DNA from: a virus
Length of the DNA: 60,977 bases
Reading direction: 5' to 3' (one strand)
Virus record (IMG/VR): IMGVR_UViG_3300021519_000001
Span: 1-60,977 of that record
The position numbers were made by a program, and so were the translations under genes. The notes under the pieces were generated by a model. The model searched no databases. It was not told the DNA's origin and saw only the letters and a list, made by a program, of their open reading frames with translations. This document shows, piece by piece, positions 4,760 through 58,953 of the stretch (its first letter is position 1; the number at the start of each line of letters is the position of its first letter).

Positions 4760-5096
4760 AAAACAAAAGAAGTTTATGGATGCAGCAGCGCACAATCCTG
4801 CATTTGCAAAAAAGGTTGGCATCCCACAGTCTGTGGCGATGGATTTTAGTAAGGCCAGTAAAGGCAAAAAATTTAGACAAGGTGGCGACATGAAACATGG
4901 ATACAAAGACGGCGGACTCGCAAAAAAAGGCGAAGGCATTGCCAAAAAAGGTTTTGCTAAAGGCGGCATGGTTGCTGGTGTAGGCCAGTCACAAGGCGAA
5001 ACGCTTAGCCAAAACGTTAAAAAGAGCGTTCAAGGCGATAAGGTTGCCGTTCGTGGTGTCGGTGCAGCACGTGCTCGCACAGCGATGATCTACTGA
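4743..5096 (+). CDS. Basic virion-region protein with GG motifs
   Basis: This 117-residue protein starts MPAVSKKQKKFMDAAAHNP, a recurrent opening in phage genomes. The Lys-rich centre contains Gly-Gly motifs (FRQGGDM, YKDGGLAKK, FAKGGMVAG) that recur in the large internal virion proteins of this genome. The end RGVGAARARTAMIY resembles that of the 60-residue gene at 4072. The overall charge is strongly basic. Role unknown; a packaged DNA-associated or internal head protein is inferred. Confidence 0.65.
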   Translation: MPAVSKKQKKFMDAAAHNPAFAKKVGIPQSVAMDFSKASKGKKFRQGGDMKHGYKDGGLAKKGEGIAKKGFAKGGMVAGVGQSQGETLSQNVKKSVQGDKVAVRGVGAARARTAMIY

Positions 5097-22255: not shown

Positions 22256-22258
22256 TTC

Positions 22259-23368: not shown

Positions 23369-23377
23369 GGACGCATC

Positions 23378-28700: not shown

Positions 28701-29127
28701 AGCTTTGGAAGACGCAGAGTTTGCCAAGCGGATCACGCATGTGGGCACACCACAGGATGCACAAAAGTTGGCGGCTGAGTTGGAGAAGATTGGCATTCCA
28801 AAGTCTGCCTACCTGCCCAACATGAAACGCGTTACCGCACAGACTGCCGCACAAACAGCAATCAGTGATCAGCCAGAAGCAGTCGGTAATATGCCCAGCC
28901 TGCCCGTGGTCCCCGGAACAAGCGCCCAGCAGATGCTGAAGAAGATGCCGCCTGCTCCGCCAACACGTGGAACAAACTTCAACCCCCGCCTGCCAACAGC
29001 GCCTGCTGTGCAGCCCGGAGGTGGTGCGGGCAATATTCCATTGATGTATCCTTCAATGTTCCCCAATGACCCGATCAGTGGATTGCTGCAGCAGCGCCAA
29101 GCCCAGCTACAAGGTCAACAAAGATAA
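25753..29127 (+). CDS. Very large internal virion/ejection protein
   Basis: This 1124-residue protein is mostly helical with charged coiled stretches (ITKERINKNQQALDSLFSSFS; QSVINYNGSMKRGSSRIQDAQRHID), an N-terminal region with a possible membrane-active hydrophobic patch (GVGGTMPFTGILAYAGSVKPLVSAATPATGLL, residues about 116-147) and a Pro-rich C-terminus (MPPAPPTRGTNFNPRLPTAP). It has no visible transglycosylase motif. It is the fourth giant virion gene; DNA ejection is inferred from the podovirus context. Confidence 0.65.
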   Translation: MPTLMNSRGEMVDFATGEVVGRAEGVPTTTTEPRAGGEAAQDVQTQGGDRVSGLLNNLSWGFNSALFAIPDAAQRLIGKGMGMDEKQVFQFTNLFNKGVQAPRNVEERYARAVGEGVGGTMPFTGILAYAGSVKPLVSAATPATGLLKGIADDAIKYVQQSPRTAAALDIAFGAGYEGLRQTVKETVDDSNPYKKIYEELLPAAAFIGLPVAAANLPSVRGVKWISDKIKGVSSGLGEIEKETLQGLPGMYKLPIINVLPTILMKRAESKLAQVFGPISESPEAQQALKQLEAALADPRVANAGFMFDAAEKTMYSPLVQRKAELLQQLGPKELEITKERINKNQQALDSLFSSFSPEARKPIQEAFTAAQADRQQFFESLLKNQKDLTDAEVMSISERLGPQNIDLLNDELRGTLMARMEMDAKARGNILRRMGLKQAVSPEGLPMPTRDQGVSLFPARDIESAAKELISKYSPERPSMSVQIPEPIRLLQKFVRTQEIAREKAEADMLVQLTDQAIGDQLAGLGKTLDPDMLSGLRDAVLSAVRGEKPKTGRKTASLSELLPLPDAKGNISIRAIVPGRNIVINPTQLKADAARVAEANTAIDLNLPEALDYLQSAMRFRNQSVINYNGSMKRGSSRIQDAQRHIDTGNAVYKDIEGLVLNNVPRIKQEYDGMKMVLEDYAAAYEKNLPLLLTQKTRGGDEFLLPNERLLQTAFSSADNLKQLQLAVSGSPQATSIMERGTIDWLRSKNVVGADGLVDPQKIRQVLDKNKNIVEALPANLQMKLQDEVKLADDFVTRLGEIDARRVGAKDQELDSLLAKATRPGADPAQTLQTALRDPATMQTLVRGVEKDPEMLAALRRSVFDVATGGAQKGGALKSFIDNNEGSLKILFKNTAHLDDLKTLADLQRRVNAFADVTGQIPIFETSDQQLKRLFGAGVQFLTTTAREAAVGRIAPSTGALAVMLRMAGGLENQIYQRIFTRALEDAEFAKRITHVGTPQDAQKLAAELEKIGIPKSAYLPNMKRVTAQTAAQTAISDQPEAVGNMPSLPVVPGTSAQQMLKKMPPAPPTRGTNFNPRLPTAPAVQPGGGAGNIPLMYPSMFPNDPISGLLQQRQAQLQGQQR

Positions 29128-39910: not shown

Positions 39911-40088
39911 GTTGTAATAAATTCCTTGTTGTTAATCGTTTGGTCCAGCAACTGGCGCAATGCCATTTCGTTGCACTTAATTCCACTCCCCCCTCAGGCG
40001 GGCGAGGCTGCATGCAGTTGTTACATAACTGGTATTTATGCACCGGCTGCTTGCTCCCCAATTGCAAGTGTCTGGTTGTGAAGCTCAT
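39852..40088 (-). CDS. Small zinc-binding protein
   Basis: This 78-residue protein has C22-x2-C25 (LCNNCMQ) and C44-x2-C47 (CASC) separated by PRPPEGGVELSATKWH, a four-cysteine zinc knuckle. AAGAAAGAGGATG lies upstream of the ATG but is inside the glycosyltransferase gene, which it overlaps by 53 bases. The C-terminal 30 residues are basic. It may bind DNA or a protein partner. Confidence 0.6.
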   Translation of the reverse strand: MSFTTRHLQLGSKQPVHKYQLCNNCMQPRPPEGGVELSATKWHCASCWTKRLTTRNLLQHAKTQTTRATDRKTSKDVG

Positions 40089-40758
40089 GTTCCATCCTCT
40101 TTCTTAAAAACTCTTCATAATCACCTTCGTACTTCTTCACCCCGAAGTGATCACACGTGTAAGCCACATCAACAAAGATCTTGAACCCTGCATCCGTTAG
40201 CTTCTTGCAAAGCTGCACATCCTCCGAAATCAATCCCCCATCAATGATCTGCAGATCACAGATCAAGCGCCGAGGCTTGTCCTCAAAGTAAGGCGTCGAT
40301 TGCTCCCAAACAGCCGTCATGGCCGCACGAGAAAGGCGCAAGAATCCAGTGCCAATGCACTCGACCTCTAGCAGATTCACATACGGGTTCCAACTGTGCT
40401 TCCAAGGGTCCTCAGGACGCAGGTTATAGCGCTCCTCCTCCACCTTCATCGGAACAGGAACACCCACCACGTCCACGGGATGATCAATCAAATCAAAGAA
40501 AGCCTGTGCGTCAAAGGATTGGTCCGAATCAATGAAAACAATGTCGTCCACCCCCGCGTCATAGGCTTCCCCAAACAGATTGCTTCTAGCCTTTTGCAGC
40601 AGCGCCTCACCCATCCAAAAGTTAAGATTCAACTCCAAGTCAGGCCTTTCCACCGCAGCGCGCTGAAAGATCACGGCCATCGTGACCGCAAAGTCACAGA
40701 CAACCTTGCCGTCATAAGACGGGCAAAGAATGGCAACTTTTCGTTTAGTAAAGCTCAC
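40036..40758 (-). CDS. GT-A-fold glycosyltransferase-like protein
   Basis: This 240-residue protein starts at GTG, after GGAACATGAAAC. It opens with KRKVAILCPSYDGKVV, and the DxD motif that binds nucleotide-sugar metal occurs as D77-S-D79 in DDIVFIDSDQSF; a later ECIGTGFLRLSRAAM and SEDVQLCKKLTDAGF are family A glycosyltransferase features. It could modify phage DNA bases, host surface sugars or virion proteins; there is no companion base-hydroxymethylase to decide. It stands out among tiny genes. Confidence 0.8.
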   Translation of the reverse strand: MSFTKRKVAILCPSYDGKVVCDFAVTMAVIFQRAAVERPDLELNLNFWMGEALLQKARSNLFGEAYDAGVDDIVFIDSDQSFDAQAFFDLIDHPVDVVGVPVPMKVEEERYNLRPEDPWKHSWNPYVNLLEVECIGTGFLRLSRAAMTAVWEQSTPYFEDKPRRLICDLQIIDGGLISEDVQLCKKLTDAGFKIFVDVAYTCDHFGVKKYEGDYEEFLRKRMEHELHNQTLAIGEQAAGA

Positions 40759-40957
40759 GTTTCATGTTCCTGATAACAATCGTAAAACCGCTTATTGTGT
40801 CAGGGCCAAAAACCTTCATCTTCTCGATTTCCCTAGCCACCTCTTCAAGGACCAAGTTACGAATCTTTTCACTGACCTCGTTCCTGTCTAACTGCGCTTC
40901 GACCATCTGGCGCTTACGCCAACCCATGGCCTTTTCCCATATGCTTAGTTCTTTCAT
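40745..40957 (-). CDS. Small helical protein
   Basis: This 70-residue protein has an N-terminal helix (MKELSIWEKAMGWRKRQMVEAQL) and heptad-like SEKIRNLVLEEVAREIEKMKVFG, then beta residues TIVIRNMKREL. A strong AAAGGAG lies ten bases upstream. It overlaps the glycosyltransferase start by 14 bases. Function unknown. Confidence 0.6.
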   Translation of the reverse strand: MKELSIWEKAMGWRKRQMVEAQLDRNEVSEKIRNLVLEEVAREIEKMKVFGPDTISGFTIVIRNMKRELY

Positions 40958-41124
40958 GTATTGCGCTCCTTTAATTTGGCTTCAACATCTCGGATTGTTT
41001 GAATCAAAGCCGCGCGCAAGGCTTGGTCTTTCTTTTCACCCACATTCCAAATCTCTTTGCGCTCTTCCTCCGTCAGCCCCTTCCAAGGGCGCACGTATTC
41101 CTGAATATCGTCGTCATCTTTCAT
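40954..41124 (-). CDS. Small acidic helical protein
   Basis: A 56-residue frame with a very strong GAAGGAGG site. It starts KDDDDIQEYVRPWKGLTEEERKEIW and ends in a charged helix ALRAALIQTIRDVEAKLKERNT. The ends overlap neighbours as ATGA on both sides. The overlap pattern and ribosome site support that it is real; function unknown. Confidence 0.65.
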   Translation of the reverse strand: MKDDDDIQEYVRPWKGLTEEERKEIWNVGEKKDQALRAALIQTIRDVEAKLKERNT

Positions 41125-41276
41125 TTGTCCTCCTTCAGCTTGTCGTTTGCCAGTTCCATCATGCGTCGATAGATCTCAGGATCCTTCTCTTTAAGCCGCC
41201 CCAAAAACAGCGGCAGCCATGTTTCATCAGTCGGCAAATTGCGCATCAATTCACCTAATTCTTTGTATGTGGTCAT
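41121..41276 (-). CDS. Small helical protein
   Basis: A 51-residue frame (MTTYKELGELMRNLPTDETWLPLF ... ANDKLKEDK) with AGGGGA upstream and ATGA overlaps at both ends. Two short amphipathic helices are likely. Function unknown; supported by operon fit. Confidence 0.62.
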   Translation of the reverse strand: MTTYKELGELMRNLPTDETWLPLFLGRLKEKDPEIYRRMMELANDKLKEDK

Positions 41277-41491
41277 GCTTGTCCCCTTGCTCGGATTTTG
41301 AATGCCATATCTTTTATATGTTCATCAGTAACTATGTTGTCGTAAACATAGTCACACATCTTTGCACACGCCTCACGCTCATGCTGTGCTACTAGCTTGG
41401 CAAATGCCCATAAAGGTTCATATCCACTGTCACCAGTTGCGTACTGCCAACCAGTTTGTTTTGCCATCTCAATCATTTCATCTTGTGTCAT
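41273..41491 (-). CDS. Conserved small protein, leftward operon
   Basis: This 72-residue protein has WAFAKLVAQHEREACAKMCDYVYDN and ends AFKIRARGQA. The REACAK-x-CD ... IRARG pattern recurs in many phages as an unnamed small protein. It is linked by ATGA overlaps to both neighbours. Two Cys lie in the central helix. Function unknown. Confidence 0.7.
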   Translation of the reverse strand: MTQDEMIEMAKQTGWQYATGDSGYEPLWAFAKLVAQHEREACAKMCDYVYDNIVTDEHIKDMAFKIRARGQA

Positions 41492-41685
41492 AGCTTCTCC
41501 TCATACTTGCTGCACTCTTCCAACCAAATAGGGTCAAAGTTCCACGGCCAATGGAACCAACCCTTCTGCGCTGCCCTAGCATTGCCAGAGATTTGCGCCT
41601 TAGGCTCCAAGCATTGGATGTGATGCGTCATGGGCAAAGGATCGCGGTTCACGCACTTGTGGCAGTCAGGCTTGCTCATACTCAT
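41488..41685 (-). CDS. Cys-containing small protein
   Basis: This 65-residue protein has C8-x2-C11 (CHKCVNR) and later C25 and C58, with a Trp-rich GWFHWPWNFDPIWLEEC end. I know this arrangement from unnamed conserved phage proteins. Metal binding is probable from the CxxC and later Cys. It overlaps its upstream gene by 20 bases and the downstream gene by four. Confidence 0.7.
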   Translation of the reverse strand: MSMSKPDCHKCVNRDPLPMTHHIQCLEPKAQISGNARAAQKGWFHWPWNFDPIWLEECSKYEEKL

Positions 41686-41863
41686 CCTTTATCTTCTGAC
41701 GATTGATCATGGCCTGCATGGGATCGGTGTCACCCATCAGCACTTCAAGCAGCAGCCTATCTATTGCCTTCAATTGCTTTTCCAATGCCGCGTTCTTGGT
41801 AACCATCTCACCACAAGCGGCAACATATGGCCGCAGCAGTTCTAGTTCTCTTTGCTCAGTCAT
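41666..41863 (-). CDS. Small coiled-coil protein
   Basis: This 65-residue protein is mainly one coiled helix (LRPYVAACGEMVTKNAALEKQLKAIDRLLLEVLMG) with a charged tail. The start overlaps the previous stop as ATGA. Function unknown. Confidence 0.63.
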   Translation of the reverse strand: MTEQRELELLRPYVAACGEMVTKNAALEKQLKAIDRLLLEVLMGDTDPMQAMINRQKIKDEYEQA

Positions 41864-42051
41864 AATTGCCTCGCTTTCATCATTGCATCTGCATAGTGGT
41901 AAGCCATGGATGCCGCATCATTTATATTGAACGACTCCGCATCGTTCATTTCCTTAATAGCCATAGGCAAAGCGGCAGCAGCGAAGTAATCGCGCAGCGC
42001 CATACCTTTGATATGGCTTAGGTGTGAGTTTGGAAATGCAAATTCAGTCAT
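41860..42051 (-). CDS. Conserved small protein with LRDYFAAAA motif
   Basis: This 63-residue protein has GMALRDYFAAAALPMAIKEM and AAASMAYHYADAMMKAR-like helices. The LRDYFAA ... AY-x-x-ADAM pattern is very widespread in phages and prophages. Its role is not established to my knowledge. It is coupled by ATGA overlaps to both neighbours. Confidence 0.72.
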   Translation of the reverse strand: MTEFAFPNSHLSHIKGMALRDYFAAAALPMAIKEMNDAESFNINDAASMAYHYADAMMKARQL

Positions 42052-42308
42052 ACAACGCGCCTCATCTCTTCAAAATAAACAGGCGCATCATGTTCAATGC
42101 GAAAAATCACATCCGGATGCAAAACCCCGCTCAAGTCCACATTACTGTTAGGCAAAAACACCGAAATCAACGTCCATACCTCCGGATAGTCCGGCTCCAA
42201 CTTCAGGCCCGACATGGGCTCAACAGAGCCAACTTCCGCCGGCTCATACTCAAAAAAACATTTGAGGTCAAGCCCTAATTCATCACATTCGTACAAGAAT
42301 TCGTACAT
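42048..42308 (-). CDS. Small acidic protein, unknown function
   Basis: This 86-residue protein has LKCFFEYEPAEVGSVEPMSGLKLEPDYPEVWTLISVFL, resembling an unnamed family with an EYxPAExGS...LEPDYPE core seen in phages. It is acidic and beta-rich. TGGGGTG lies just upstream of the start. It begins three bases after its upstream neighbour. Confidence 0.68.
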   Translation of the reverse strand: MYEFLYECDELGLDLKCFFEYEPAEVGSVEPMSGLKLEPDYPEVWTLISVFLPNSNVDLSGVLHPDVIFRIEHDAPVYFEEMRRVV

Positions 42309-42311
42309 ACA

Positions 42312-42557
42312 TCACCCCACAGTTAAAATTATTAAAATGCCCACAATCAACGAACCTATCGTCACCGGCCACAAAGGCACAGGACGATGGATTGAGGACC
42401 ATCCCATCAAAGCTGCCTGAACAAACTCCTCAGACGATGTCATCTCAGGAGGCTTTGGTTGGTACAGCAGCCCTATCTGTACCTTGCCCGTGTTAAAAGG
42501 CGTTACACGCCCGTTTGCGCTGCTCACAGAGATACATTCATTGGCATTAGTGATCAT
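42312..42557 (-). CDS. Small C-terminally membrane-anchored protein
   Basis: This 81-residue protein has a polar N-terminal half and one C-terminal hydrophobic helix (PLWPVTIGSLIVGILIILTVG), so it may be tail-anchored in the inner membrane. It overlaps the upstream gene by 11 bases. Possible roles include superinfection exclusion, but there is no direct evidence. Confidence 0.62.
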   Translation of the reverse strand: MITNANECISVSSANGRVTPFNTGKVQIGLLYQPKPPEMTSSEEFVQAALMGWSSIHRPVPLWPVTIGSLIVGILIILTVG

Positions 42558-42795
42558 AGGATGCCCCCATTCTTTTCTTGGCCTTCAACGCATCCTCATA
42601 CGCATGCTCAAACCCTTCCAAAAACTTGTCCAACGGCACATCCAACTCAGCAGTCAAAATGGCTGAAGCAACAAGGCACGCGAACCACGCGTCAGCAGGC
42701 TTGACAAAAGTAGTTGCGCAAAAGTTAAGCAGAGTCTGCGCATTGTCCATGATTTGTCCGATGTCTTTATCCACATCGTCCGTCTGTTTAGTCAT
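42547..42795 (-). CDS. First gene of the leftward small-gene operon
   Basis: This 82-residue protein has an acidic helical start (DDVDKDIGQIMDNAQTLLNFCAT) and helices through VPLDKFLEGFEHAYEDALKAKKR. Its start follows the recurrent AGAAAGGATAG leader on this strand and lies 60 bases from a promoter at 42855-42883. Function unknown. Confidence 0.68.
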   Translation of the reverse strand: MTKQTDDVDKDIGQIMDNAQTLLNFCATTFVKPADAWFACLVASAILTAELDVPLDKFLEGFEHAYEDALKAKKRMGASYDH

Positions 42796-42854
42796 ATCAC
42801 TATCCTTTCTTTGTTAATGAAGTTTGTCCGCCTTTTATCTAAGTGGACAGGGTT

Positions 42855-42883
42855 ATTATCATGCTTTTATCTAGTTAGGTCAA
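42855..42883 (-). promoter_or_regulatory. Leftward sigma-70 promoter
   Basis: Read on the minus strand, TTGACC (42883-42878), a 17-base spacer and GATAAT (42860-42855) form a good promoter. It drives the fifteen-gene leftward operon beginning at 42795. AGATAAAAG occurs in the spacer and again 3' of the -10. Confidence 0.78.
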
Positions 42884-43291
42884 TTACTTGGAATGTACTA
42901 TTTCCTAGGGGTTTTCCCTTGGTTAGGGGTTGGGGGTGTTCCGTATAGCGGTGCTGGGTGGATATACAGTGGTTTATGGGGGAGGGGGGATGGGCCGCGG
43001 ACCGAGGGTCAAAAAGGGGAAAAATGGCTCAAAAAGTAATACTAAGGTTTAGGTGCTATAGACCTTTTAGGGGTAAGGTATGTTTTTTTTTTTATTTTTG
43101 TGAGATTTGGCGTAATAGACGTAATGGTGTAAGAACTGAATGAAATCAATACGTTATCAGCATTCGGCAAATTACGTCTGGAGATTCAGTGTAATATTTC
43201 TAGGGGGGCTCCGCGAGATGAAAAGTAAAAAAATAAAAACACACTACACCCTCCAAAAGTTCTATAGGGAGCCCTGATTGCTCTTTGTTGG
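42884..43291. other. Noncoding control region between divergent operons
   Basis: No convincing gene is seen in these 408 bases. It holds G-rich runs at about 42907-42935 and 42979-43001, a short hairpin ACCTT/AAGGT (43062-43079) followed by a run of eleven T at 43082-43093, and AT-rich sequence to 43250. The strand bias and T run suggest a transcription barrier, and the AT-rich part could be an origin; neither is proved. Short frames here lack coding character. Confidence 0.6.
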
Positions 43292-43320
43292 TTGACTCTG
43301 AGGGCGACACGCGATATACT
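43292..43320 (+). promoter_or_regulatory. Promoter for the small-terminase operon
   Basis: TTGACT (43292-43297), a 17-base spacer and TATACT (43315-43320) form a strong host-type promoter. The first ATG follows 29 bases downstream, after GGGAG. Confidence 0.8.
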
Positions 43321-43348
43321 CGTGGTAGTTCTTTTACGGGAGTTAATG

Positions 43349-43564
43349 ATGGTACATATTGATCAGGGAATAGCCCTGCCAACCAATCGATCCAAATATC
43401 CTTTTGGGGAGATGGAGGCGGGCGATAGCATCCTGTTTGGCGTTCGCAAGCAGGCAGAGAGTTGTCGTGTGGCTGCCCTTCGATTCACACGTGTGCATCA
43501 GCCCAAATGGGTATTTACGCTGCGCAAGGTGGACAATGGTTGGCGTTTGTGGAGAATCAGCTAA
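43349..43564 (+). CDS. Conserved small protein upstream of terminase small subunit
   Basis: I use the ATG at 43349, six bases after GGGAG, giving 71 residues (MVHIDQGIALPTNRSKYPFGEME ...). The pattern KYPFGEMEAGDSILFG and VHQPKWVFTLRKVDNGWRLWRI resembles a compact beta domain recurrent in phages. The stop overlaps the terminase start by one base (TAATG). Function unknown; DNA-related by association only. Confidence 0.75.
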   Translation: MVHIDQGIALPTNRSKYPFGEMEAGDSILFGVRKQAESCRVAALRFTRVHQPKWVFTLRKVDNGWRLWRIS

Positions 43565-44232
43565 TGGCCAAGAAAGACGTCTACAACGTTCCACCGGTTA
43601 TGCCGGACAAAGCACAAAAGCGAATGACTACAGAAGTGGCTCCGCTGCGGCAGCAGCGTAGGAAGCTGACGCCTAAGGAATGGACCTTTGTTACCGAGCT
43701 TGTGAGTGGTGACGGACGGGTGACCATGAAAGAGGCTGCCATAAGGGCCGGATACAAGTCCACCAGCGCTTCTGTCATGGCATGGAAGCTTACCCACCCC
43801 GACATCAATCCACACGTTGTAGCGGCCATTCAAGCCTATCGTGCTGAGTTGGCATCCAAATACAACACGTCTTACGAGCGCCACATGCGTGATTTGCAAA
43901 CCATTCGCGATAAAGCTTTGGATGCCGGTGCATTTGCTGCAGCAGTCCAAGCAGAGTATCGTAGGGGTCAAGCCTTGGGAACGATCTATGTGGAGCGCAA
44001 AGAGATCCGCCACGGCACAATTGACAGCATGAGCAAGGAAGAAGTGCAGCGCAAGCTTGACGAGCTTAAAAAGCTGTATGGTGGGCCTCCACCCACTGCC
44101 TTGATCGATGCGGACACGGGAGTGGTGATTGAAAGTGCAGCAAGAGAAAAAGACCCCGATTTCGACGCGGGAGTGGAGCAGCCTCCGCCTGACATCTTTG
44201 AGCAAGATTTGGGAGGATCAGATGACACCTGA
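43564..44232 (+). CDS. terS: Terminase small subunit
   Basis: The start at 43564 overlaps the previous stop and follows GGAG, giving 222 residues. It has a helix-turn-helix-like N-terminal part (LTPKEWTFVTELVSGDGRVTMKEAAIRAGYKSTSASVMAWKLTHPDINPHVV) and a helical oligomerisation part (ELASKYNTSYERHMRDLQTIRDKALDAGAFAAAVQAEYRRGQALG), matching the Terminase_2 type of small subunits that recognise packaging sites. It is separated from the large subunit by 6 kb of small genes, which is unusual. Confidence 0.85.
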   Translation: MAKKDVYNVPPVMPDKAQKRMTTEVAPLRQQRRKLTPKEWTFVTELVSGDGRVTMKEAAIRAGYKSTSASVMAWKLTHPDINPHVVAAIQAYRAELASKYNTSYERHMRDLQTIRDKALDAGAFAAAVQAEYRRGQALGTIYVERKEIRHGTIDSMSKEEVQRKLDELKKLYGGPPPTALIDADTGVVIESAAREKDPDFDAGVEQPPPDIFEQDLGGSDDT

Positions 44233-44626
44233 AGCTAGGTTTTCGATAAGAGTACGAGAGGGCCTTTCACGTTGCAATATTGAACGCATTGAAAATCGCG
44301 TCAACCTTGGCATTCCTGACATGTTGGTGGGTGTTGGGGATCGGTTTATTCCAATCGAATTGAAAGTGGTGGCTAGGGGTTTAAAGGTGGGCTTGCGGCC
44401 ACATCAGATTGCTTTCATGATTCGGCATACTGTTCAGCACAGGCCCTGCTTTGTGCTTGTGCTTGACATGGGTAACACACTACGCCCTTCAACCATTCGC
44501 TTGTACCATGGGCGCGATGCCATGCAATTGGCTGCAGAGGGCCTAAGGCTTATCCCGATACAGTCTTGGCCATCGCGTGGCATGCCTTGGGGGGAACTAG
44601 AGGAAACCCTAGGTTTAGTAAAATAA
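44222..44626 (+). CDS. VRR-NUC domain nuclease
   Basis: With the ATG at 44222 after GGAGG, this is a 134-residue protein. RVNLGIPDMLVGVGDRFIPIELKVV gives the G-x-PD ... E-x-K nuclease core, followed by GLRPHQIAFMIRH, the conserved Gln helix of stand-alone VRR-NUC proteins. Such enzymes act on branched or replicating DNA, for example resolving Holliday junctions. It overlaps the terminase small subunit by 11 bases, suggesting a role in processing DNA before packaging. Confidence 0.85.
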   Translation: MTPEARFSIRVREGLSRCNIERIENRVNLGIPDMLVGVGDRFIPIELKVVARGLKVGLRPHQIAFMIRHTVQHRPCFVLVLDMGNTLRPSTIRLYHGRDAMQLAAEGLRLIPIQSWPSRGMPWGELEETLGLVK

Positions 44627-44639
44627 ATGTAAATAAGTG

Positions 44640-44667
44640 TTGCAAGGTACAAAAACCTTGTTATACT
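44640..44667 (+). promoter_or_regulatory. Promoter with palindromic operator in spacer
   Basis: TTGCAA (44640-44645), a 16-base spacer and TATACT (44662-44667). The perfect inverted repeat CAAGGT-ACAAAA-ACCTTG (44643-44660) overlaps the end of the -35 and fills the spacer, the position of a classical repressor site. A GCCGG/CCGG hairpin follows in the leader at about 44674-44690. Confidence 0.75.
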
Positions 44668-44715
44668 GGCGATGCCGGTGCTTGATCCGGTGACCTTAGA
44701 AAGAAGAGAGCAGAT

Positions 44716-44955
44716 ATGAAATTATCAGTTGATTTACTTGACAATCATGTCAAGAGTGCAGTCGTCGACATTGGTGCAAACAATGGCTATGTTGAGGTCT
44801 TTGTATCGGGGGGTGTTGTGCATCTCAATGTGTTTAATAAAGGTGGTGACGTAGTCCATGACTATGCCATCACCACTGCAGACCTAAGGAAGAACTTGGG
44901 TAAAGGTTCCACTACCCCTAAGTTTGAGCCCGCTCAAGAACACTACGAAGACTAG
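44716..44955 (+). CDS. Small accessory protein
   Basis: This 79-residue protein has MKLSVDLLDNHVKSAVVDIGANNGYVEVFVSGGVVHLNVF, a beta-rich core, with an acidic tail. The ribosome leader AGAAAGAAGAGAG precedes it. It is the first gene after the operator-bearing promoter. No family recognised. Confidence 0.65.
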   Translation: MKLSVDLLDNHVKSAVVDIGANNGYVEVFVSGGVVHLNVFNKGGDVVHDYAITTADLRKNLGKGSTTPKFEPAQEHYED

Positions 44956-44968
44956 AAAGGATAGAGAA

Positions 44969-45127
44969 ATGACTCAGTTGACGATTGATTTAAGCGAATC
45001 GGACGATGCAATGATTCGCGCAAATGCCCGTAGTGCGGTGGCCAATGGTGAATACTATGGCGACTTTGATTATGCTTATGAATGCGAGTGGCGTTATTTT
45101 GAAGACGACCTTGCATATCAAAATTGA
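44969..45127 (+). CDS. Small acidic accessory protein
   Basis: The start is set at 44969 by the leader AGAAAGGATAGAGAA immediately upstream; an upstream start would overlap the previous gene. The 52 residues are acidic with many Tyr (NGEYYGDFDYAYECEWRYFEDD). This composition could suit a DNA mimic, but there is no direct evidence. Confidence 0.62.
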   Translation: MTQLTIDLSESDDAMIRANARSAVANGEYYGDFDYAYECEWRYFEDDLAYQN

Positions 45128-50289: not shown

Positions 50290-51759
50290 ATGCACTCTAC
50301 AAAACCCGATGACGTACAAGACGAACAGCTTCGCCTAGAGCTACGCTTAAAACTCTTGGAGGCGCAGGAACGTGCAACCACTGATTTCCTGTCTTTCTGT
50401 CAATACGTCTGGCCCGAGATGCTTGTTGGGGAACACCACAAACGTATCGCCAAGGCCCTTGATCGTGTAATAACCGGCGAGTGCAAACGCCTGATGATTG
50501 CGATGCCTCCCCGTCATGGCAAGTCCCAGCTTGGCAGCTACCTGTTCCCGGCGTATCTTATGGGTAGAAACCCTGACACCAAACTTATTGTCGGCTCCCA
50601 CACCGCGGAGCTTGCTCAACGCTTTGGTAGGATGATCCGTAACCTTGTTGACGACGAGAAATACAAAGAGTTGTTCCCAAAGATGGCCCTGTCAGTTGAC
50701 AGTAAGGCTGCCGGTCGGTGGAACACGTCTCAAGGCGGTGAAGCGTTTTTTATTGGTAAGGGCGGTGCGATGACGGGCCGTGGTGGTAATGTTGTTGTAC
50801 TTGACGATATTTTGGACGAGCAGGATGCTGTGTCTGAAACTGCGATGGAGAACACGTGGGAGTGGTACACGTCCGGTCCTCGCCAGCGTTTGCAACCGGG
50901 CGGTGCAATCATTGTCATTAATACTCGGTGGAAGACCGACGACCTTTCTGGCCGCTTGCTCAAGCAGCAGGGCTATTTAAAGTCAGACCAGTGGGAGGTG
51001 TTGGAGTTCCCTGCCATTTTGCCTAGTGGTAAACCCTTGTGGCCCGATTACTGGAGCCTTGATGAGTTAGAAAAAGTCAAGGTATCTATTGGTTTGAAGA
51101 AGTGGAACGCCCAGTGGCAGCAGCAGCCAACGAATGATGAAGGTGCGATCCTGAAGCGTAACTGGTGGCGCAAGTGGAAGTACGATGATCCACCAGAGTG
51201 TGAGTATCTGATTCAGGTATACGACACGGCGTACTCAAAGAAAGAGACTGCTGACTTCTCTGTTATTAGTACGTGGGGCGTGTTCTATCCTGATGCTGAC
51301 TCTGGTGCAAATTTGATGCTGCTTAATGTGCGCAAAGGCCGTTGGGATTTTCCTGAGCTAAAGCGCATGGCTAAAGATGAATACATGTATTGGAAGCCGG
51401 ACAATGTTTTGATTGAGGCAAAAGCTACTGGCACGCCCTTGCAGCAGGAACTGCGTAAAATGGGTATTCCTGTCACGATGTTCTCCCCGGGCGGCCGTAG
51501 GTCTGGTCAGGACAAAGTCAGCCGCGCCAATGCCGTGGCCCCGCTCCTTGAGTCTGGAATGATCTGGTATCCAGAGGGACAGGAGTGGGCCGAGGACCTT
51601 GTAGAGGAATGTGCGGCTTTTCCTAATGGGAACAATGACGACCAAGTGGATACTGCGGTGATGGCTTGGACAAGATTTCGTGCGGGTAACTTTATTGCGT
51701 TGGACACGGATGATAATGAAGAAGACGAGCCGGATACAACACCTGTTGAGTATTATTGA
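50290..51759 (+). CDS. terL: Terminase large subunit
   Basis: This 489-residue protein has Walker A MPPRHGKS (72-79), Walker B NVVVLDD (D172-D173), motif III VINTRWKTDDLSG, and the RNase H-type nuclease residues in YDTAYSKKETADFS, VLIEAKATG and NDDQVDT. It is the motor that packages DNA into the prohead and cuts it. It starts the late block and is 6 kb from its small subunit. GC-rich neighbours upstream may hold the cut site. Confidence 0.96.
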   Translation: MHSTKPDDVQDEQLRLELRLKLLEAQERATTDFLSFCQYVWPEMLVGEHHKRIAKALDRVITGECKRLMIAMPPRHGKSQLGSYLFPAYLMGRNPDTKLIVGSHTAELAQRFGRMIRNLVDDEKYKELFPKMALSVDSKAAGRWNTSQGGEAFFIGKGGAMTGRGGNVVVLDDILDEQDAVSETAMENTWEWYTSGPRQRLQPGGAIIVINTRWKTDDLSGRLLKQQGYLKSDQWEVLEFPAILPSGKPLWPDYWSLDELEKVKVSIGLKKWNAQWQQQPTNDEGAILKRNWWRKWKYDDPPECEYLIQVYDTAYSKKETADFSVISTWGVFYPDADSGANLMLLNVRKGRWDFPELKRMAKDEYMYWKPDNVLIEAKATGTPLQQELRKMGIPVTMFSPGGRRSGQDKVSRANAVAPLLESGMIWYPEGQEWAEDLVEECAAFPNGNNDDQVDTAVMAWTRFRAGNFIALDTDDNEEDEPDTTPVEYY

Positions 51760-51804: not shown

Positions 51805-54800
51805 ATGGCCCAACAGACGTTTGAAGAGATAGTTGCTGCTGTAAAGCAAGCGGAGAGCCGCGGCAAGCGCTACAAGGATGACGGTAAAACTCTGACCACC
51901 AGTCCCAAGGGTGCCCTTGGTGAGATGCAGGTCATGCCCAAGACCATTACAAATCCCGGCTTTGGTGTAACCCCTGCTAAGGATAAGTCCCCGGACGAGA
52001 TTGCGCGTGTAGGTCGTGACTATTTGCAGGCCATGAAGCAAAAGTATGGTGATACGGACAAAGCTTTGGTTGCGTATAACATGGGCCCGGGAGCCACGGA
52101 CAAATGGTTAGCTGCTGGTGCTGATCCAAAGAAACTGCCGGAAGAAACCAGAACGTATGTTCAGCGCGTCAATGGATTGCTTGGCGGAAATGTTTCACGT
52201 GAAACATCTGTTGCAAAGACAGAACCTACTCCTGCCGAAGAGATCATGACCAAGGCCCTTCCTGCGGGGACCACGGCCCAAGCTATGCCAAAAGACGAAG
52301 TCAAGACTTTGGCAAAGATGGATGTCAAGGAAATGCCTGCCAGTTATCAAGCCGCTTTTGCTTTAGCGGCTTTGGCAGATGCGCAGGACGAAGAAGACGA
52401 CAGGGTATACAACGAGAACAAGGGCACGGAAACGGAAGCTTTCTTTGCCAACTACAAGCCTGTCAATCATTTGGCATCGCTTGATTTAAGCGTCAAACCT
52501 TTAACGTTCAAAGAAGGTGGGGAAGTAGATGCTGAAGATTTAAGCAAACCATCCTTTGGCAATCCTAATATCAGAAAGCAAGGCGAGGCAGCAAGGAGAC
52601 TTGCTGCTTTGCGGGATGTCAACACATTACCCGACCCTAAAACATATGCCGTAGCTTCTGGTCTGATGGGCACGGCCCCTGATCAGATGGGGTTCAGTGT
52701 GATGCATCCTAAGTACAAAGAGATTATGGATGTAGCCAATCCTGCTTTTGCGGCGGGTACAGCGCTGCAAATTGCCCCTGTTGCACAGGGTCCCGGCATG
52801 GGACGTATGGTGGGTGCAGCGGAAAAAGCTTTGGAGCCAGCGGTGCGTAGGACGCTGGAAGGTGGAGGTAAGGCTTCGCAAATGTTGCAAGATTTGGCGG
52901 CTCCTCCTTCGCAAATGTTTGTTCGTGCAAGGCCGGAAGCAGCAGCGCGGCACGCGGACCTGCAGGCGCAAGGCTTGTCACCAGAACAAATCCGTGCGCA
53001 GAATTTAACTTTGGTTGATAACCGCGGTAATTTGCTGGAAGAGATCAGTGATGCGCCGGCAGTTTTGCAGCAAAAGACTGCCTCTGTTCCACGTATGTAC
53101 TACGATATGTTAAAGCATCCCGAACTTCAAAGCATTTATCCAGCATATGACATGCCTGATGTGCGGATAGGAACAACAAGGCGCAAAAATGCCCCGTTAG
53201 CTGCGGCGTCTTTTGGGGAGAAAGAAGGAATTCAAGGAACAGTGCGTAGTTTGCCGGGTGATGATGTTAGGGGCACGGTCCGCGGAACTTTATTGCACGA
53301 GGGCCAGCATGCAATCCAGTCCATGGAAGGCTTTACAGAGGGTGCAAACCCTAGTTCTTTTGTTGCTTACGTTAAAGCAAAGCGCGGTATATACGATGCT
53401 GATCCTACGGTCAACGAAAATGTTATTCGAGAAATGGAGAGGGTGTATCCAAATTTGTCTGACATTACAGACAGGATAGGGCAGGATCTTAAAGCTAGGT
53501 ATGGCAAAGTTTTTCCTTCAGACAAACGCATGGGAGAAGCTTTGTACAGGCACATGCCGGGGGAGGTGCAGGCAGAGTTGGCTCGTATTCGCAGTAACTT
53601 GACGCCGGACGAGCTTAAAGCAACGCCGCTTGAAGTGTCTATGCAGCAATTAAATATTAATCCTGCCAATATTTTAGAAATGAACAAAATGGGTTCACGC
53701 CTTGACAGGCAGATTGGTGATCTGGAATATGATGTTTATGGCTACGCGCAAGGCGGTCCTGTGTATCGTGCAGATGGCAGTCCTGAAGAAGGCGAGCGCA
53801 AGTTAGACCGTGAAACAATGGATATGTTGCGCAGGCAAGGTACATCTCCTGCGTCGTTACAACGAGTGGCTCCTCCTGCTGACATAAGTTCTTCTGCGGC
53901 AGGTTTGCCCGGATTGATGTTGTTTGCCGATCCACGCATTGACCAGACTAATGCGTATGGCTACATGTTGGATGGTGGGGATGATACAAAAAACCGTGCC
54001 ATGGCTCAGGCAATGTTTTTAAACAAAAGTAGATCAGAAGACTACCCCGATACGATTGCGCATGAAACAGAACATTTGTTGGCACGTCAGAATTTAGGAT
54101 CTGCGGCTAATATTAATAGTAAGTTTGATGAGTTGATAGGGAATAAGGGCACTTCTCGTCTTAATTTTGTTAGAGACGCCGTTAAAGCTGCCCCTTACTT
54201 AAAAGAAAAATACGACCTGCAGTCTAGCTATCTTGATCCAAAAATGTTTGAGTATCAATCTAAATTTGGTTTGGGCAAAAACCTTTTGTATGAGCAATTG
54301 GCTTCTTTAGCTGCGTTGGAGCAGCGCCACAAGATAGATTTGACCAAAGATCCGGAGTTGCGTAAGACTTTGTTCTCACGTCCCGATGTCCGCGAGACGT
54401 ATAACGCCCTTACTGGTCTGCGTCAAACGCGCCTAGACCCACGGGACTTGCCCCCACACACACGCGTACCTGAACCCGGCATGTTAGATGCAGTTAAAAA
54501 GGTTTTTAAGCGTGCCGATGGCGGGATGGTGTACCGCGCAGACGGAAGTCCTGAAGAAGGCGAGCGTTTGACCCCGCAGCAGATAGAACGAATCGCGGCC
54601 CAAGAATCAGCAGAGCGTGAAGCAGCAAGCAATGCTGCATTTATTGCGCAGAAGTCCGGTATTGGTCGCAAGGCAGGCCCTGTTTCTCAAGCGTTGCAGT
54701 CTGGTCAGGGGCAGATAGAGTTTCTTAAAGGCATGACCAACGTACCGCAGAATATTTTGGGTGCGCCGATGGATATTTCCAACATGATTGCCGGCATATA

Positions 54801-56559
54801 CGGTGGTAATGTTGAAAAGCCGTTTATGGGCAGTGAGTATCTGAAGGAAAAATCACGGGCCGCGGGCCTAGGGTTTACCCCATCTACCGACCCAACGCTG
54901 GCTGGTTTCTACGGTGCTGGTGATTTAGGTAGTAACCTTGTCAATCCTGCCGGCGTTGCGCGCACGGGTGTAAAAGCAGCGGAAAAAACAGGGGAAGCAG
55001 CCAAGATGTTGGCCCGTGATTTCCAAGGTTACAACCAGCAGTTGGCTGTTCCCGGTGCTTCGTATGCGGTTCGTAATAAGGGCACACCTGTTGCTATGAC
55101 AGGGCTTCCATTTTTGCCTAATGTTGATGAAGCAGAAAAGGTAGTCAAGAATGTGACAATTGGCCAAATGAAAGAACCTTTGGCAGTAAAGGATAAATCT
55201 TTAAACGATTGGTTTTCAAAAACGGTTACGCGATATCTTCGTTCAGATTTTGCAACACCTCAAGATCAGTTGGTCAGGGCTGCAGAGGAGGGCAAGATGT
55301 TGCACCTTGCTCCTAAGGAATTTTCTGATTCGGCAGAAGATCAAGCACTTAAACATTTTTTAGGCCGTAGACAATCTGATTTAGAGTACATGCGTCAAGC
55401 AGAAGGGTTTGGTAAATCCAATATGGCAACGCAGCCATATGGACAACGTATAGAAGACATAACAGATATTTCTGCGTATCCGGAAAGGGTGGGGGATTTA
55501 ACACCTAACAGGGTGCCTGCAAGCATGCGCAATCTTGTAGAAACTCAGCCCGAAGCACGGGTAACGGATTTTGCGCCCAACATAGTAGAAAACCTAAAGT
55601 TAGAACAGTTGCGGGACAAGATGCTGGATGTTCGTCAATCAGGAGGAACATATGGGGCATATGGCCAGCCTGCCGCTAAAATACCTTCAGAGTTTTTGTT
55701 ACCAGACGATACCTTGGCAAAATTAAATGTTGCAGCAGCTTCTAATCGGATGGCGCGGTATACAAAGTGGCAAGATGAAACTAGGCAGAAGATGGCCACT
55801 ACGGCTCTGCGCTCGGATCCTGAGTTTCCAAGAGCGGAGTTACAGGAAGGTAAGTTTTTAGGTGTTGCATTGCCTAATATTAAGAAAAACCCACAAATTA
55901 AACAACTGGTTACTGATGTGGGATGCGATGGTGGGTGGTGCACAAGGTACACACCAAACGCTGAAGCCTATGCCTCTGGGTTTAGTCGACTGCATGTGAT
56001 AGTAACGGGAGAAGGCAAACAAGCGCGCCCTGTTGCCCAGTTTGCTATTGCTGATTCTGGCCCATCCTATGATACAAAGCGTTTTTCTATTACTGAGGTA
56101 AAAGAAAAAGGAAACACAAAAGATTTTGCAAACAATCCAGCGCTTCCCGCAATTCAAGAATACATCCAGTACCTTGACAAAACATACGGTGGCCTTGATT
56201 ATGTGGACAATTTAAAAGGGCTACGTTTGACAGCCTTGCCTGAATACCCAATGCAACTGTTAGATTTGTTTAAACCTACTGTTCAACAAAGAAGGATGTT
56301 GGAAAACAAATATGGTAGTGAGGAAAACGGCTTAAGGGCAGTCAGGGACAAAGCAGTTGATTTAAACAATGGATCTCGGTTCATGACGGGAAATGAGGAC
56401 AAGGTTGCTAATACGCTTGAGCAAGCTATGCAACTACTTGTCGGTCCAAAAGAAACCTTAGCACGCCGAATCCAAATGAATTTATTTGGACTTCCCAAAG
56501 AAAAGGCGCATGGGGGTATGATCGAGCGCCAACCCAACGATAACCGCAGATATCTGTAA
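51805..56559 (+). CDS. Polyvalent protein: transglycosylase plus HExxH domains
   Basis: This 1584-residue protein has an N-terminal SLT lytic transglycosylase domain: catalytic E17 in KQAES, GEMQVMP (residues about 39-45), then AYNMGPGATDKWL. Two zinc-peptidase-type motifs follow: H498-E-G-Q-H502 and H753-E-T-E-H757. VYRADGSPEEGER occurs twice (about residues 653 and 910), and the C-terminus has GCDGGWCTRYTPNAEAYASGFSRLHVIV, similar to folds in polyvalent proteins. Located between terminase and portal, it is probably packaged and injected with DNA to open the wall and act on host proteins. Confidence 0.75.
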   Translation: MAQQTFEEIVAAVKQAESRGKRYKDDGKTLTTSPKGALGEMQVMPKTITNPGFGVTPAKDKSPDEIARVGRDYLQAMKQKYGDTDKALVAYNMGPGATDKWLAAGADPKKLPEETRTYVQRVNGLLGGNVSRETSVAKTEPTPAEEIMTKALPAGTTAQAMPKDEVKTLAKMDVKEMPASYQAAFALAALADAQDEEDDRVYNENKGTETEAFFANYKPVNHLASLDLSVKPLTFKEGGEVDAEDLSKPSFGNPNIRKQGEAARRLAALRDVNTLPDPKTYAVASGLMGTAPDQMGFSVMHPKYKEIMDVANPAFAAGTALQIAPVAQGPGMGRMVGAAEKALEPAVRRTLEGGGKASQMLQDLAAPPSQMFVRARPEAAARHADLQAQGLSPEQIRAQNLTLVDNRGNLLEEISDAPAVLQQKTASVPRMYYDMLKHPELQSIYPAYDMPDVRIGTTRRKNAPLAAASFGEKEGIQGTVRSLPGDDVRGTVRGTLLHEGQHAIQSMEGFTEGANPSSFVAYVKAKRGIYDADPTVNENVIREMERVYPNLSDITDRIGQDLKARYGKVFPSDKRMGEALYRHMPGEVQAELARIRSNLTPDELKATPLEVSMQQLNINPANILEMNKMGSRLDRQIGDLEYDVYGYAQGGPVYRADGSPEEGERKLDRETMDMLRRQGTSPASLQRVAPPADISSSAAGLPGLMLFADPRIDQTNAYGYMLDGGDDTKNRAMAQAMFLNKSRSEDYPDTIAHETEHLLARQNLGSAANINSKFDELIGNKGTSRLNFVRDAVKAAPYLKEKYDLQSSYLDPKMFEYQSKFGLGKNLLYEQLASLAALEQRHKIDLTKDPELRKTLFSRPDVRETYNALTGLRQTRLDPRDLPPHTRVPEPGMLDAVKKVFKRADGGMVYRADGSPEEGERLTPQQIERIAAQESAEREAASNAAFIAQKSGIGRKAGPVSQALQSGQGQIEFLKGMTNVPQNILGAPMDISNMIAGIYGGNVEKPFMGSEYLKEKSRAAGLGFTPSTDPTLAGFYGAGDLGSNLVNPAGVARTGVKAAEKTGEAAKMLARDFQGYNQQLAVPGASYAVRNKGTPVAMTGLPFLPNVDEAEKVVKNVTIGQMKEPLAVKDKSLNDWFSKTVTRYLRSDFATPQDQLVRAAEEGKMLHLAPKEFSDSAEDQALKHFLGRRQSDLEYMRQAEGFGKSNMATQPYGQRIEDITDISAYPERVGDLTPNRVPASMRNLVETQPEARVTDFAPNIVENLKLEQLRDKMLDVRQSGGTYGAYGQPAAKIPSEFLLPDDTLAKLNVAAASNRMARYTKWQDETRQKMATTALRSDPEFPRAELQEGKFLGVALPNIKKNPQIKQLVTDVGCDGGWCTRYTPNAEAYASGFSRLHVIVTGEGKQARPVAQFAIADSGPSYDTKRFSITEVKEKGNTKDFANNPALPAIQEYIQYLDKTYGGLDYVDNLKGLRLTALPEYPMQLLDLFKPTVQQRRMLENKYGSEENGLRAVRDKAVDLNNGSRFMTGNEDKVANTLEQAMQLLVGPKETLARRIQMNLFGLPKEKAHGGMIERQPNDNRRYL

Positions 56560-56568
56560 GGACACAAC

Positions 56569-58953
56569 ATGCCAATTGAAAAGAACATGACAATCGACGA
56601 CTTGCCTGAGGGCGATGTCGCCGTTGAGATGGAAGATGAATTGCCCTCGGATATTGACATTGAGTTTGATACAGAAACCGGTGAAGTTGTTGTAAACATT
56701 GGCGCAGAAGACGACGATGTGGCCTATGACAGCAACTTAGCCGAGATCATTGAGCCGGATGTTTTGCAGCTTATTTCTTCTGACTTGATGTCGTTGTTTG
56801 ATGCTGACAAGTCTTCACGCAAAGAGTGGGAAGAGCAGTACAGCAAGGGCATGAAGATGCTGGGCTTCACGTTTGAAGAGCGTACCAAGCCATTCAAGGG
56901 CGCGTGCGGCGTGCAGCACCCACTTTTGACCGAGAGTATTGTTCAATTCCAAGCCCAAGCGCTTAAAGAATTGATGCCCGCGGGCGGCCCTGTTCGTACA
57001 CAGGTGCTGGGCAAAGAAACACGTGAGAAGTTGATGCAGGCAGACCGCGTCAAGGACTTCATGAACTACCAAATCACCACGGTGATGGAAGAGTACACAC
57101 CTGACTTTGATCAGTTGCTGTTCTATGTTGGCTTTGGTGGCTCGGCGTTTAAGAAGGTTTACTACGACGAGGCCAAGGGCCGCATGGTCAGTGCTTTGGT
57201 GCTGCCAGATAATCTGTATATACCGTATACGGGCTCATCGGTGATGAGCGAATGCCAACGAATCACGCACCGCGTTCCGATGTCCACCAACGATTACCGC
57301 AAGGCGGTCATTCGTGGTCAGTACTTGGATACAGCGCAGATGACGACGGCGGCAGAGACGGGCCAGAGCATTATCAAGAAGGAAGTTGACCGCACAACAG
57401 GCGTTGATCCTACGGGTGTGGAAGAAGAGATCTGTTTGTTAGAGTTCTTGGTTGATCTAGACATCCGCGGCTTTGAGCACAAGGATGAAGACGGCGAAGA
57501 GACGGGTATCAAGCTGCCATACATCGTCACCATTGATGAGATCTCCCAGTCTGTTGTAGGCGTGCGCCGCAACTGGAAAGAGGGCGATTCTCTGTTTGCG
57601 CGTAAGCAGTACTATGTGCATTACTTGCTGGTCCAAGGCCCCGGAGCTTATGGCTTGGGCTTCTTGCATTTGGTTGGTGGTCTTACTAAGACAGCTACTT
57701 CTGCACTGCAGCAATTGGTGGACGCTGGAACGCTCGCTAACCTTCCTGCAGGCTTTAAAGCCAAGGGTGCGCGTATTGCAAACGACGATACACCTTTGTC
57801 GCCCGGTGAGTTCAGGGATATGGACGCTGGTGGTGCGGAGTTGTCTGCATCTTTGTTGCCATTGCCATACAAAGAGCCAAGCCAGACGCTATTTGCGCTA
57901 CTAGGTTTCTGCGTAGATGCTGGTCGCCGTTTGGCAAGCATTACCGACATGCAAGTTGGTGACAGCAACCAGAATGCTGCTGTTGGAACGACGATTGCGT
58001 TGCTTGAAAAAGGCAGTGCGGTCATGTCTGCAATTCACAAGCGTTTGCATTACAGCCAACGCATGGAATTTCAATTGTTGGCCAAAGGTTTTGCAGAGTA
58101 TTTGCCTACTGAGTACCCATACGATGTGCCCGGGGAGAGCCGCAAGATCAAGGCACGTGACTTTGACGACCGCATCGATGTTTTGCCTGTTTCTGACCCC
58201 AACATCTTCTCTGTTGCCCAGCGTATCACGATGGCGCAAACCCAGTTGCAATTGGCTCAGAGCGCACCGCAGATGCACAACATGTATGAGGCTTACTACC
58301 GCATGTATGAGGCTATTGGTGTGCGGGACATTGACACCATCTTGAACAGCCAGCAAATTGATAAGCCAAAGGATCCTGCAAGCGAAAACGCACAGGCATT
58401 GGACGGCTCACCGCTCAAAGCTTTTGCCGGCCAGCAGCATGATGCGCACATCATGACGCATATCTTGTTTGGTATGAGCCCAATGATGGGCGGTATGCCT
58501 AACGTGGCGGTTACTCTGCAGAAACACATCTTTGATCACATCCGTTTGAAGGCGGAAGAAGAGGTGGAAGCGGAGTTGTTCCAGCAGTACGGCACAGATC
58601 CTGACCAGCTTATCTCATCTTTGCAGCGTGAAGCGATGATTGCAATCAAGGTTGCGCAGGGCTTCCAAGAAGTCAAGGCTTTGCAGGTTCAATTACAGGG
58701 CCCACAGACTGATCCTTTGGTGGAATTGAAGAAGCAAGAACTATCCCAAAGCGCTCAGCGCGACCAAGCCAAGCTGCAGATGGATCAACAACGTCTTGGA
58801 TTGGACCAACAGAAGGAACAAGCGGATACACAGTTTGATTCTGCTCGTTTGGCACTGCAACAAGCAGCGGCTGCACAGAAGAACTCACAAGATGCAATCA
58901 GAAATGCCCAACAAGGAGCAAAAAATGCAAACCAAAGCAGCAAAAAGTCCTAA
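56569..58953 (+). CDS. Portal protein (P22-like)
   Basis: This 794-residue protein has an acidic N-terminal region, KSSRKEWEEQYSKGMKMLGF, PFKGACGVQHPLLTESIVQFQAQALKELMPAGGPVRTQV, then YYVHYLLVQGPGAYGLGFLHLVGGLTKTATSALQQLVDAG, a helix-rich crown and a Gln/Ala/Lys-rich C-terminal coiled tail (KQELSQSAQRDQAKLQMDQQRLGL). The order matches large P22-like portals with a barrel. It lies after the polyvalent protein and before head genes. Confidence 0.88.
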   Translation: MPIEKNMTIDDLPEGDVAVEMEDELPSDIDIEFDTETGEVVVNIGAEDDDVAYDSNLAEIIEPDVLQLISSDLMSLFDADKSSRKEWEEQYSKGMKMLGFTFEERTKPFKGACGVQHPLLTESIVQFQAQALKELMPAGGPVRTQVLGKETREKLMQADRVKDFMNYQITTVMEEYTPDFDQLLFYVGFGGSAFKKVYYDEAKGRMVSALVLPDNLYIPYTGSSVMSECQRITHRVPMSTNDYRKAVIRGQYLDTAQMTTAAETGQSIIKKEVDRTTGVDPTGVEEEICLLEFLVDLDIRGFEHKDEDGEETGIKLPYIVTIDEISQSVVGVRRNWKEGDSLFARKQYYVHYLLVQGPGAYGLGFLHLVGGLTKTATSALQQLVDAGTLANLPAGFKAKGARIANDDTPLSPGEFRDMDAGGAELSASLLPLPYKEPSQTLFALLGFCVDAGRRLASITDMQVGDSNQNAAVGTTIALLEKGSAVMSAIHKRLHYSQRMEFQLLAKGFAEYLPTEYPYDVPGESRKIKARDFDDRIDVLPVSDPNIFSVAQRITMAQTQLQLAQSAPQMHNMYEAYYRMYEAIGVRDIDTILNSQQIDKPKDPASENAQALDGSPLKAFAGQQHDAHIMTHILFGMSPMMGGMPNVAVTLQKHIFDHIRLKAEEEVEAELFQQYGTDPDQLISSLQREAMIAIKVAQGFQEVKALQVQLQGPQTDPLVELKKQELSQSAQRDQAKLQMDQQRLGLDQQKEQADTQFDSARLALQQAAAAQKNSQDAIRNAQQGAKNANQSSKKS

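Follow-up and report, generated by a model that had tools for sequence, protein, structure and literature searches.

A putative virion cargo protein with exchangeable modules and a conserved C-terminal tag, encoded between the terminase and portal genes of an aquatic phage group

Why a protein with a lytic transglycosylase domain should be encoded next to the DNA-packaging motor is the question raised by the ORF at 51805-56559 (+) of the IMG/VR virus record IMGVR_UViG_3300021519_000001. The window analyzed here is this whole record of 60,977 nt. The ORF is open and intact, and its product has 1584 residues. It is flanked upstream by TerL (50290-51759, +; phrog_38, 6e-113) and downstream by the portal gene (56569-58953, +; phrog_1216, 2.6e-37), which form the left and right borders of what we call the cargo slot. 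The portal gene starts 9 nt after the stop codon of the ORF, and is followed by a GroES-like gene and then by a conserved gene of the capsid-assembly region. Apart from the SLT domain of the cargo protein, one murein hydrolase was found in the window, a phage-lysozyme endolysin (15357-15800). Pfam and PHROGs recognized no murein hydrolase among the ejection-region genes at 18605-29127. The first-pass annotation had remarked that the transglycosylase adjoins motor and portal; this holds, and no second virion murein hydrolase was found in that region by these two collections. The slot is fixed, the transglycosylase is N-terminal, hinge-joined modules are swapped, and a conserved tag is found also on single-domain ORFs. 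We lean toward reading the product as an exchangeable polyvalent cargo associated with the virion, whose C-terminal tag serves loading or docking and whose hinges are mostly fusion scars.

The motifs named by the first-pass annotation are all present at the residues given, namely GEMQVMP at 39, AYNMGPG at 90, HEGQH at 498, HETEH at 753, and GWCTR at 1377, and the duplicated segment it listed is real, with VYRADGSPEEGER at residues 653 and 909. Its list lacked two further GG joints, at residues 235-241 and 1567-1584, as well as the conserved terminal tag formed by the last 15 residues. The following features are all on the plus strand. Module A, the SLT lytic transglycosylase, spans residues 1-130 (51805-52194), with E17 in AESRG, GEMQVMP, and AYNMGPG; Pfam PF01464 matches residues 7-105 (E 1.6e-12, 47.5 bits vs a cut-off of 21.3), and both the catalytic Glu and the AYN-GPG motif of SLT lytic transglycosylases are present. 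Nothing beyond SLT was recognized in the protein by Pfam, NCBIfam, or PHROGs. The first GG hinge, FKEGGEV (residues 235-241, 52507-52527), leads into module C, or M1 (residues 238-649, 52516-53751), which hosts the first HExxH. The second hinge, YAQGGPVYRADGSPEEGER (residues 647-665, 53743-53799), leads into module E, or M2 (residues 652-905, 53758-54519), with the second HExxH. The third hinge, RADGGMVYRADGSPEEGER (residues 903-921, 54511-54567), coincides in position with the tag that ends stand-alone M2 homologues. A helical region with a low-confidence model (residues 922-1100, 54568-55104) contains a second frequent breakpoint near residues 1060-1100 and is followed by the PcfJ-like C module (residues 1101-1555, 55105-56469; GWCTR at 55933-55947). 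The tag, GGMIERQPNDNRRYL, occupies residues 1570-1584 (56512-56556). SLT, HExxH, and PcfJ-like modules are thus functionally unlike domains in one polypeptide, which is encoded by a mobile element near virion or late genes, its gene lying between TerL and portal both here and in every near-clade locus that reaches both flanks. This domain mix and late-gene position bear out the earlier description as a polyvalent protein. Elsewhere in the window, several GG hinge-like motifs occur only in two ORFs: 18605-22255 (1216 aa, ejection region; three motifs vs 0.31 expected) and 4743-5096 (117 aa, matching virion structural families; three motifs vs 0.13 expected).

Three queries, namely the whole protein, module M2, and the C-terminal module, were used to scan IMG/VR and yielded loci L002-L120; E-values of these loci apply to the candidate stretches only. 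The near-clade relatives are all metagenomic contigs. Wherever a contig reaches far enough, the order is TerL, a tagged ORF, sometimes a second tagged ORF, and portal. Selection by the tag pattern gave 45 distinct complete slot ORFs of 920-2000 residues with 26 module architectures, a count that depends on the hinge pattern used for splitting and on the clustering thresholds. The most constant module is SLT, the N-terminal cluster at the module A position being present in 41 of the 45. It comes in two sequence types, and some relatives have the second type in place of that of the window. The window architecture is A-C-E-B (SLT, HEGQH, HETEH, PcfJ-like). L014 (A-C-D) has lost the second HExxH and has a different C module, L010 (A-F-B) has HEVTH in place of HEGQH, L091 (A-B) is without HExxH, and L007 (A-C-E-H) has a third C module. 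A conserved HELQSD motif marks this third type (L007, L013, L026, L029, and L037; e.g., L007:4235-6934), which had no family match.

TerL is ca. 79-99% identical in relatives with different cargo. Specifically, TerL and portal are 99.1% and 99.0% identical in L035, 98.6% and 99.6% in L053, and 98.0% and 97.3% in L095, whereas only 17%, 15%, and 15% of the window cargo, respectively, find a match of at least 60% identity. Interior homology ends within 20 residues of an 'xAxGGxV' hinge in 46% of cases vs 7% at random, a descriptive figure as the pairs are non-independent. Hence, cargo modules are swapped like cassettes among near-identical phages and are joined at GG hinges. Assembly chimerism was judged an unlikely source of the shuffling, because the joints are in frame and share only short exact stretches, and because architectures were seen repeatedly in contigs from different samples.

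We then inspected the two HExxH modules. Two HExxH motifs in such a protein greatly exceed chance: shuffling predicts 0.006 in the window protein, and 0.31 in the 45 related ORFs, which have 47. In M1, HEGQH is located at residues 498-502 (53296-53310, +), and the presumed third ligand is E587 at 53563-53565 (PGEV). In M2, HETEH is located at residues 753-757 (54061-54075, +), and the presumed third ligand is E830 at 54292-54294 (LLYEQLA). The H, E, H, and E587 of M1 are invariant over 21 rows, including HEVTH/HEMTH modules of 26-28% identity; the HE..H and E830 of M2 (alignment columns H104, E105, H108, and E181) are invariant over 14 rows, down to 32%, and stand-alone M2-type ORFs retain HE..H and the third Glu as well. 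Overall, the presumed metal ligands of both modules are kept down to 26-35% identity, a zincin-like pattern of HExxH and third Glu. M2 is also found as separate tagged ORFs. M1 is replaced in relatives by HEVTH/HEMTH modules or is absent, and some cargo variants are entirely without HExxH. The AF2 model of the protein has a mean pLDDT of 48.7, with M1 poorly and M2 fairly modelled (mostly 75-94 within residues 669-879). In it, a small sheet is followed by helices that carry HExxH and the third Glu, respectively, with low confidence for M1, which agrees with the zincin arrangement described in passages of Iyer et al. (2017, J Bacteriol, PMC5512222). A PDB fold search with the HExxH-module model gave no match and is uninformative because the poorly modelled M1 drags the query; profiles A2 and A3 had no relevant match among PDB sequences. 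Homology between the two modules was rejected, as the M1 and M2 profiles align solely at the RADGSPEEGE hinge. A catalytic zincin is well supported by conservation, but not by fold. Peptidase activity is credible because both modules keep their presumed metal ligands, and cleavage of host proteins may be one option among several. The peptidase idea of the first-pass annotation, for which loss of the motifs in homologues would have been fatal, thus stands as far as conservation goes (HExxH, E587, and E830); as to a zincin fold, M1 was modelled poorly and the fairly modelled M2 had no PDB match.

The same modules might instead cut the polypeptide at its GG hinges and so release separate effectors, whether ahead of packaging, inside the head, or once in the host. 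In the proposal of Iyer et al. (PMC5512222), polyvalent proteins are processed by zincin-like peptidases, and these authors report that P1 DdrB is packaged in processed form; the hinges do recur between domains and resemble one another. We nevertheless find such a polyprotein unlikely: HExxH is missing in cis from 13 of the 45 complete slot ORFs, yet each of these carries one to three GG motifs, tag included, and single-domain ORFs have the GG motif at their very end. Because these 13 variants keep hinges and tag, cis cleavage, to judge from the sequences, cannot be the general purpose of the hinges; trans cleavage at them is possible.

The complete slot ORFs end in versions of GGMIERQPNDNRRYL with the consensus GG-x-[IV]-ER-x3-DNR[RK]Y[LM]. 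Among L002-L042, which were fetched by the whole-protein search, the tag is present in every ORF with an intact 3' end. Over 33 distinct DNA versions, G1, G2, E5, R6, R12, and Y14 are invariant while synonymous sites vary, and the median dN/dS is 0.14; therefore, selection acts on the protein. The C-module profiles A4 and A8 align over their last 22 columns only, i.e., over the tag. A second tagged ORF is present in the slots of L011, L056-L060, L081, L085-L088, L090, and L099, and each ORF of such a two-gene slot has its own tag in different codons. In L057, the large ORF ends in GGMVERRSDDRKYL and a 260-aa zincin-like ORF in GGAVERQTADHRKYL. The second ORFs of L011 (7751-8476) and L099 (1203-1928), ca. 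241 aa each and beside a polyvalent ORF, have a weak endolysin match (phrog_938, 1.2e-5). In distant phages, whose TerL is ca. 50% identical, the slot holds one stand-alone zincin-like ORF with a diverged GG tail (FANGGAVPHAGNNKLI, YAEGGYVPQAGNNKLI, FKKGGSVDKPLPGGHKII, or YSEGGFVDKPLSGGSKLI). The hinge after M2 aligns exactly with the tag of stand-alone M2 proteins (KLKKLMGFADGGAVERQ vs AVKKVFKRADGGMVYRAD), and the hinges therefore look like former tags left after gene fusion. Diverse cargo with one common short terminal peptide, the hallmark of T4-type internal proteins, is thus found here, which suggests that the tail peptide may be a loading signal for proteins carried into the host.

The tag abuts the ribosome-binding site of the portal gene, so that its conservation at the DNA level may partly reflect regulation or a recombination border. 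The two-gene slots speak against this being the whole story. A stricter version holds that hinges and tag have no function in the protein, being short conserved in-frame recombination sites, with the conserved end a fixed flank of the portal gene. It would account for the duplication seen also in the DNA (47 nt, 83% identical, copies 768 nt apart), the continuation of the tag into the TAAGGA ribosome-binding region, and the coincidence of breakpoints and hinges. It is improbable in view of the six tag residues that stay invariant while synonymous sites vary, of the two-gene slots, where both ORFs are tagged with different codons and one is thus not beside the portal gene, and of the distant tails, which keep GGxV and a hydrophobic end despite different sequence. 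Very unlikely is a conventional ejection protein like T7 gp16, with transglycosylase, DNA-channel structural domains, and degenerate HExxH motifs: T7 gp16 does have an N-terminal transglycosylase (PMC8954989), but the window has a separate DNA-ejection-protein match (22259-23368, phrog_4287) and further large proteins within 18605-29127, channel proteins would hardly be rebuilt so freely among phages with 99% identical portals, and the HExxH motifs are retained in the modules carrying them.

We hence return to an exchangeable cargo of the virion. Its delivery at infection is suggested by the late gene position, by an SLT domain without a separate lysis role, as an endolysin exists, by the portable C-terminal peptide, and by the fast exchange of the other modules. 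The tag would direct cargo synthesized late to the procapsid, and perhaps to the portal in particular, and the protein would leave the virion together with the DNA. The SLT domain would aid murein crossing, and the remaining modules would be active inside the host cell during early infection, those with HExxH as peptidases. The hinges, mostly scars of fused tagged genes, would now serve as flexible linkers and in-frame joints, which would make effector swapping possible. Lineages would exchange effectors, probably under host-defence pressure, and keep the entry enzyme and the tag. If this cargo reading is right, the effectors of the phage group are readable from one locus, as TerL-portal ORFs ending in the tag; the tag is a second natural packaging signal beside that of T4; early effectors that counter unknown host defences can be drawn from this slot of abundant aquatic phages; and a virion protein evolves by cassettes, as polymorphic toxins do. 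More tentatively, the C-terminal GG peptide could be a general address tag that loads TerL-portal effectors, with hinges as fossil tags. Were that true, a large group of phages, freshwater and marine alike, would use it, and fusing it to a protein would lead to packaging and delivery of that protein.

To place the slot in a wider group, we looked at relatives of portal and TerL. Those in the phage collection are Phage DSL-LC04, which is metagenome-assembled (PMC10611076), the pelagiphages HTVC027P and HTVC023P, and phage 023Pt_psg01; Roseobacter, Caulobacter, and Planktothrix phages are more distant. In HTVC027P, HTVC023P, and 023Pt_psg01, the TerL-portal slot is occupied by one or two proteins without annotation, and the Roseobacter, Caulobacter, and Planktothrix relatives have no protein gene there. 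Phage records searched for full relatives gave SLT matches only, among the matches listed. In a portal-profile census, the TerL-portal gap contained either next to nothing or as much as 6.1 kb; in the phage group of the window, this gap is as a rule a cargo slot. GGx[VIMLAS] was found in the last 25 residues of 38 of 77 slot ORFs (at least 100 aa) vs 77 of 773 other ORFs, ca. 25-30 of these 77 being homologues of GroES that contain GGE[IV]R, and in 26 of 66 TerL-region ORFs, which have GG tails of their own. The TerL C-termini (window 50290-51759 and L002-L279) close with RFR[QA]G[GN]F[IV]..., then an acidic stretch, then YY; G[GN]x[VIML] with a terminal aromatic pair is seen in 107 of 126 distinct tails. 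This layout resembles that of the cargo tag and, speculatively, might indicate a common docking partner such as the portal.

Portal relatives are found in MAG bins of many phyla and therefore name no host, and a genome-contig search with the C module for a host gave nothing. Nine of the loci (L208, L218, L222-L224, L226, L240, L253, and L274) come from one MAG, Maricaulis sp. IN14; this bin seems to contain phage sequence, because many of its contigs carry portals of the group.

As to the C module, its profile matches the Pfam-positive PcfJ protein of DSL-LC04 (hhalign 97.9%, E 5.8e-13), and BFVD returned a PcfJ-like match (E 5.8e-21). The PcfJ kinship raised earlier for the GWCTR domain is thereby supported. 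Pfam PcfJ (PF14284) itself did not match the window protein at E<=10. Nor did MPTase-PolyVal (PF18818) or LPD23 (PF18838), common but not obligatory members of polyvalent proteins, at the same cut-off; the slot relative L119 has a sub-threshold LPD23 match (0.0017). As profile and fold similarity is present and a direct PF14284 match is absent, the C module is similar to PcfJ-like proteins but is not counted as a Pfam PcfJ member. Its AF2 model is confident (pLDDT mostly 85-96) and has a GNAT-like order of strands and helices, the best PDB match being HAT1 (E 0.01, prob 0.97). The CoA-binding motif [QR]xxGx[GA] is intact in the C2 type only (QMNGNG) and reads EVKEKG in the window. A comparison with the window's own GNAT gave no profile match. 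The GNAT likeness, based on the model, is a lead rather than a result.

The closest functional parallel, by analogy, would be the T4 internal proteins, diverse defence proteins that have only a capsid targeting sequence in common (PMC3012670). In both cases highly diverse cargo carries one short peptide, which in T4 directs encapsidation. The T4 signal is established and resides on small separate proteins, whereas the window tag, which has a putative role, sits at the C-terminus, in most cases of a single large fusion. Polyvalent proteins, as described in passages of Iyer et al. (PMC5512222), likewise combine several unlike enzymatic domains in a chain, with a zincin-type HExxH hub, a lysozyme-type domain, and a place among virion genes. 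These passages describe domain architectures; no discussion of PcfJ, SLT, linkers, or GG motifs was found in them, and they do not describe a common terminal tag or a fixed slot between TerL and portal that is remodelled in near-identical phages. An N-terminal transglycosylase is also found in T7 gp16 and other ejection proteins (PMC8954989), among which domain swapping is known; the window cargo differs from T7 gp16 in gene position, HExxH and PcfJ-like modules, and much faster module turnover. The PcfJ-like protein of DSL-LC04 (OR003939, WJZ48068.1) occupies the same TerL-portal slot, its C-terminal domain is recognized as PcfJ (Pfam 5.2e-9), and it contains GG motifs along with the element RAEGSPEYGE; it differs in having 825 residues, no recognized SLT or HExxH module, and the end GGVNKYD. 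The slot ORFs of HTVC027P, HTVC023P, and 023Pt_psg01 have GG motifs, several with a GG tail, but no clear similarity to the window cargo among the tblastn matches listed. In the literature searched, which left out many subscription papers, we found no earlier description of hinge or tag; the phage papers among it do not use 'PcfJ-like', and the HTVC027P transcriptome paper leaves the slot genes unnamed in its main text.

Other parts of the window gave a few observations of their own. Just downstream of the capsid gene are two minus-strand genes, one with a GNAT acetyltransferase match (2578-3096, -; Pfam 2.8e-6) and the other HNH-like by eye (2211-2588, -). The ca. 4 kb at 41300-45100 have hardly any convincing gene, with ORFs overlapping in several frames, and the GC skew at 40001-42000 is strongly negative (-0.21).
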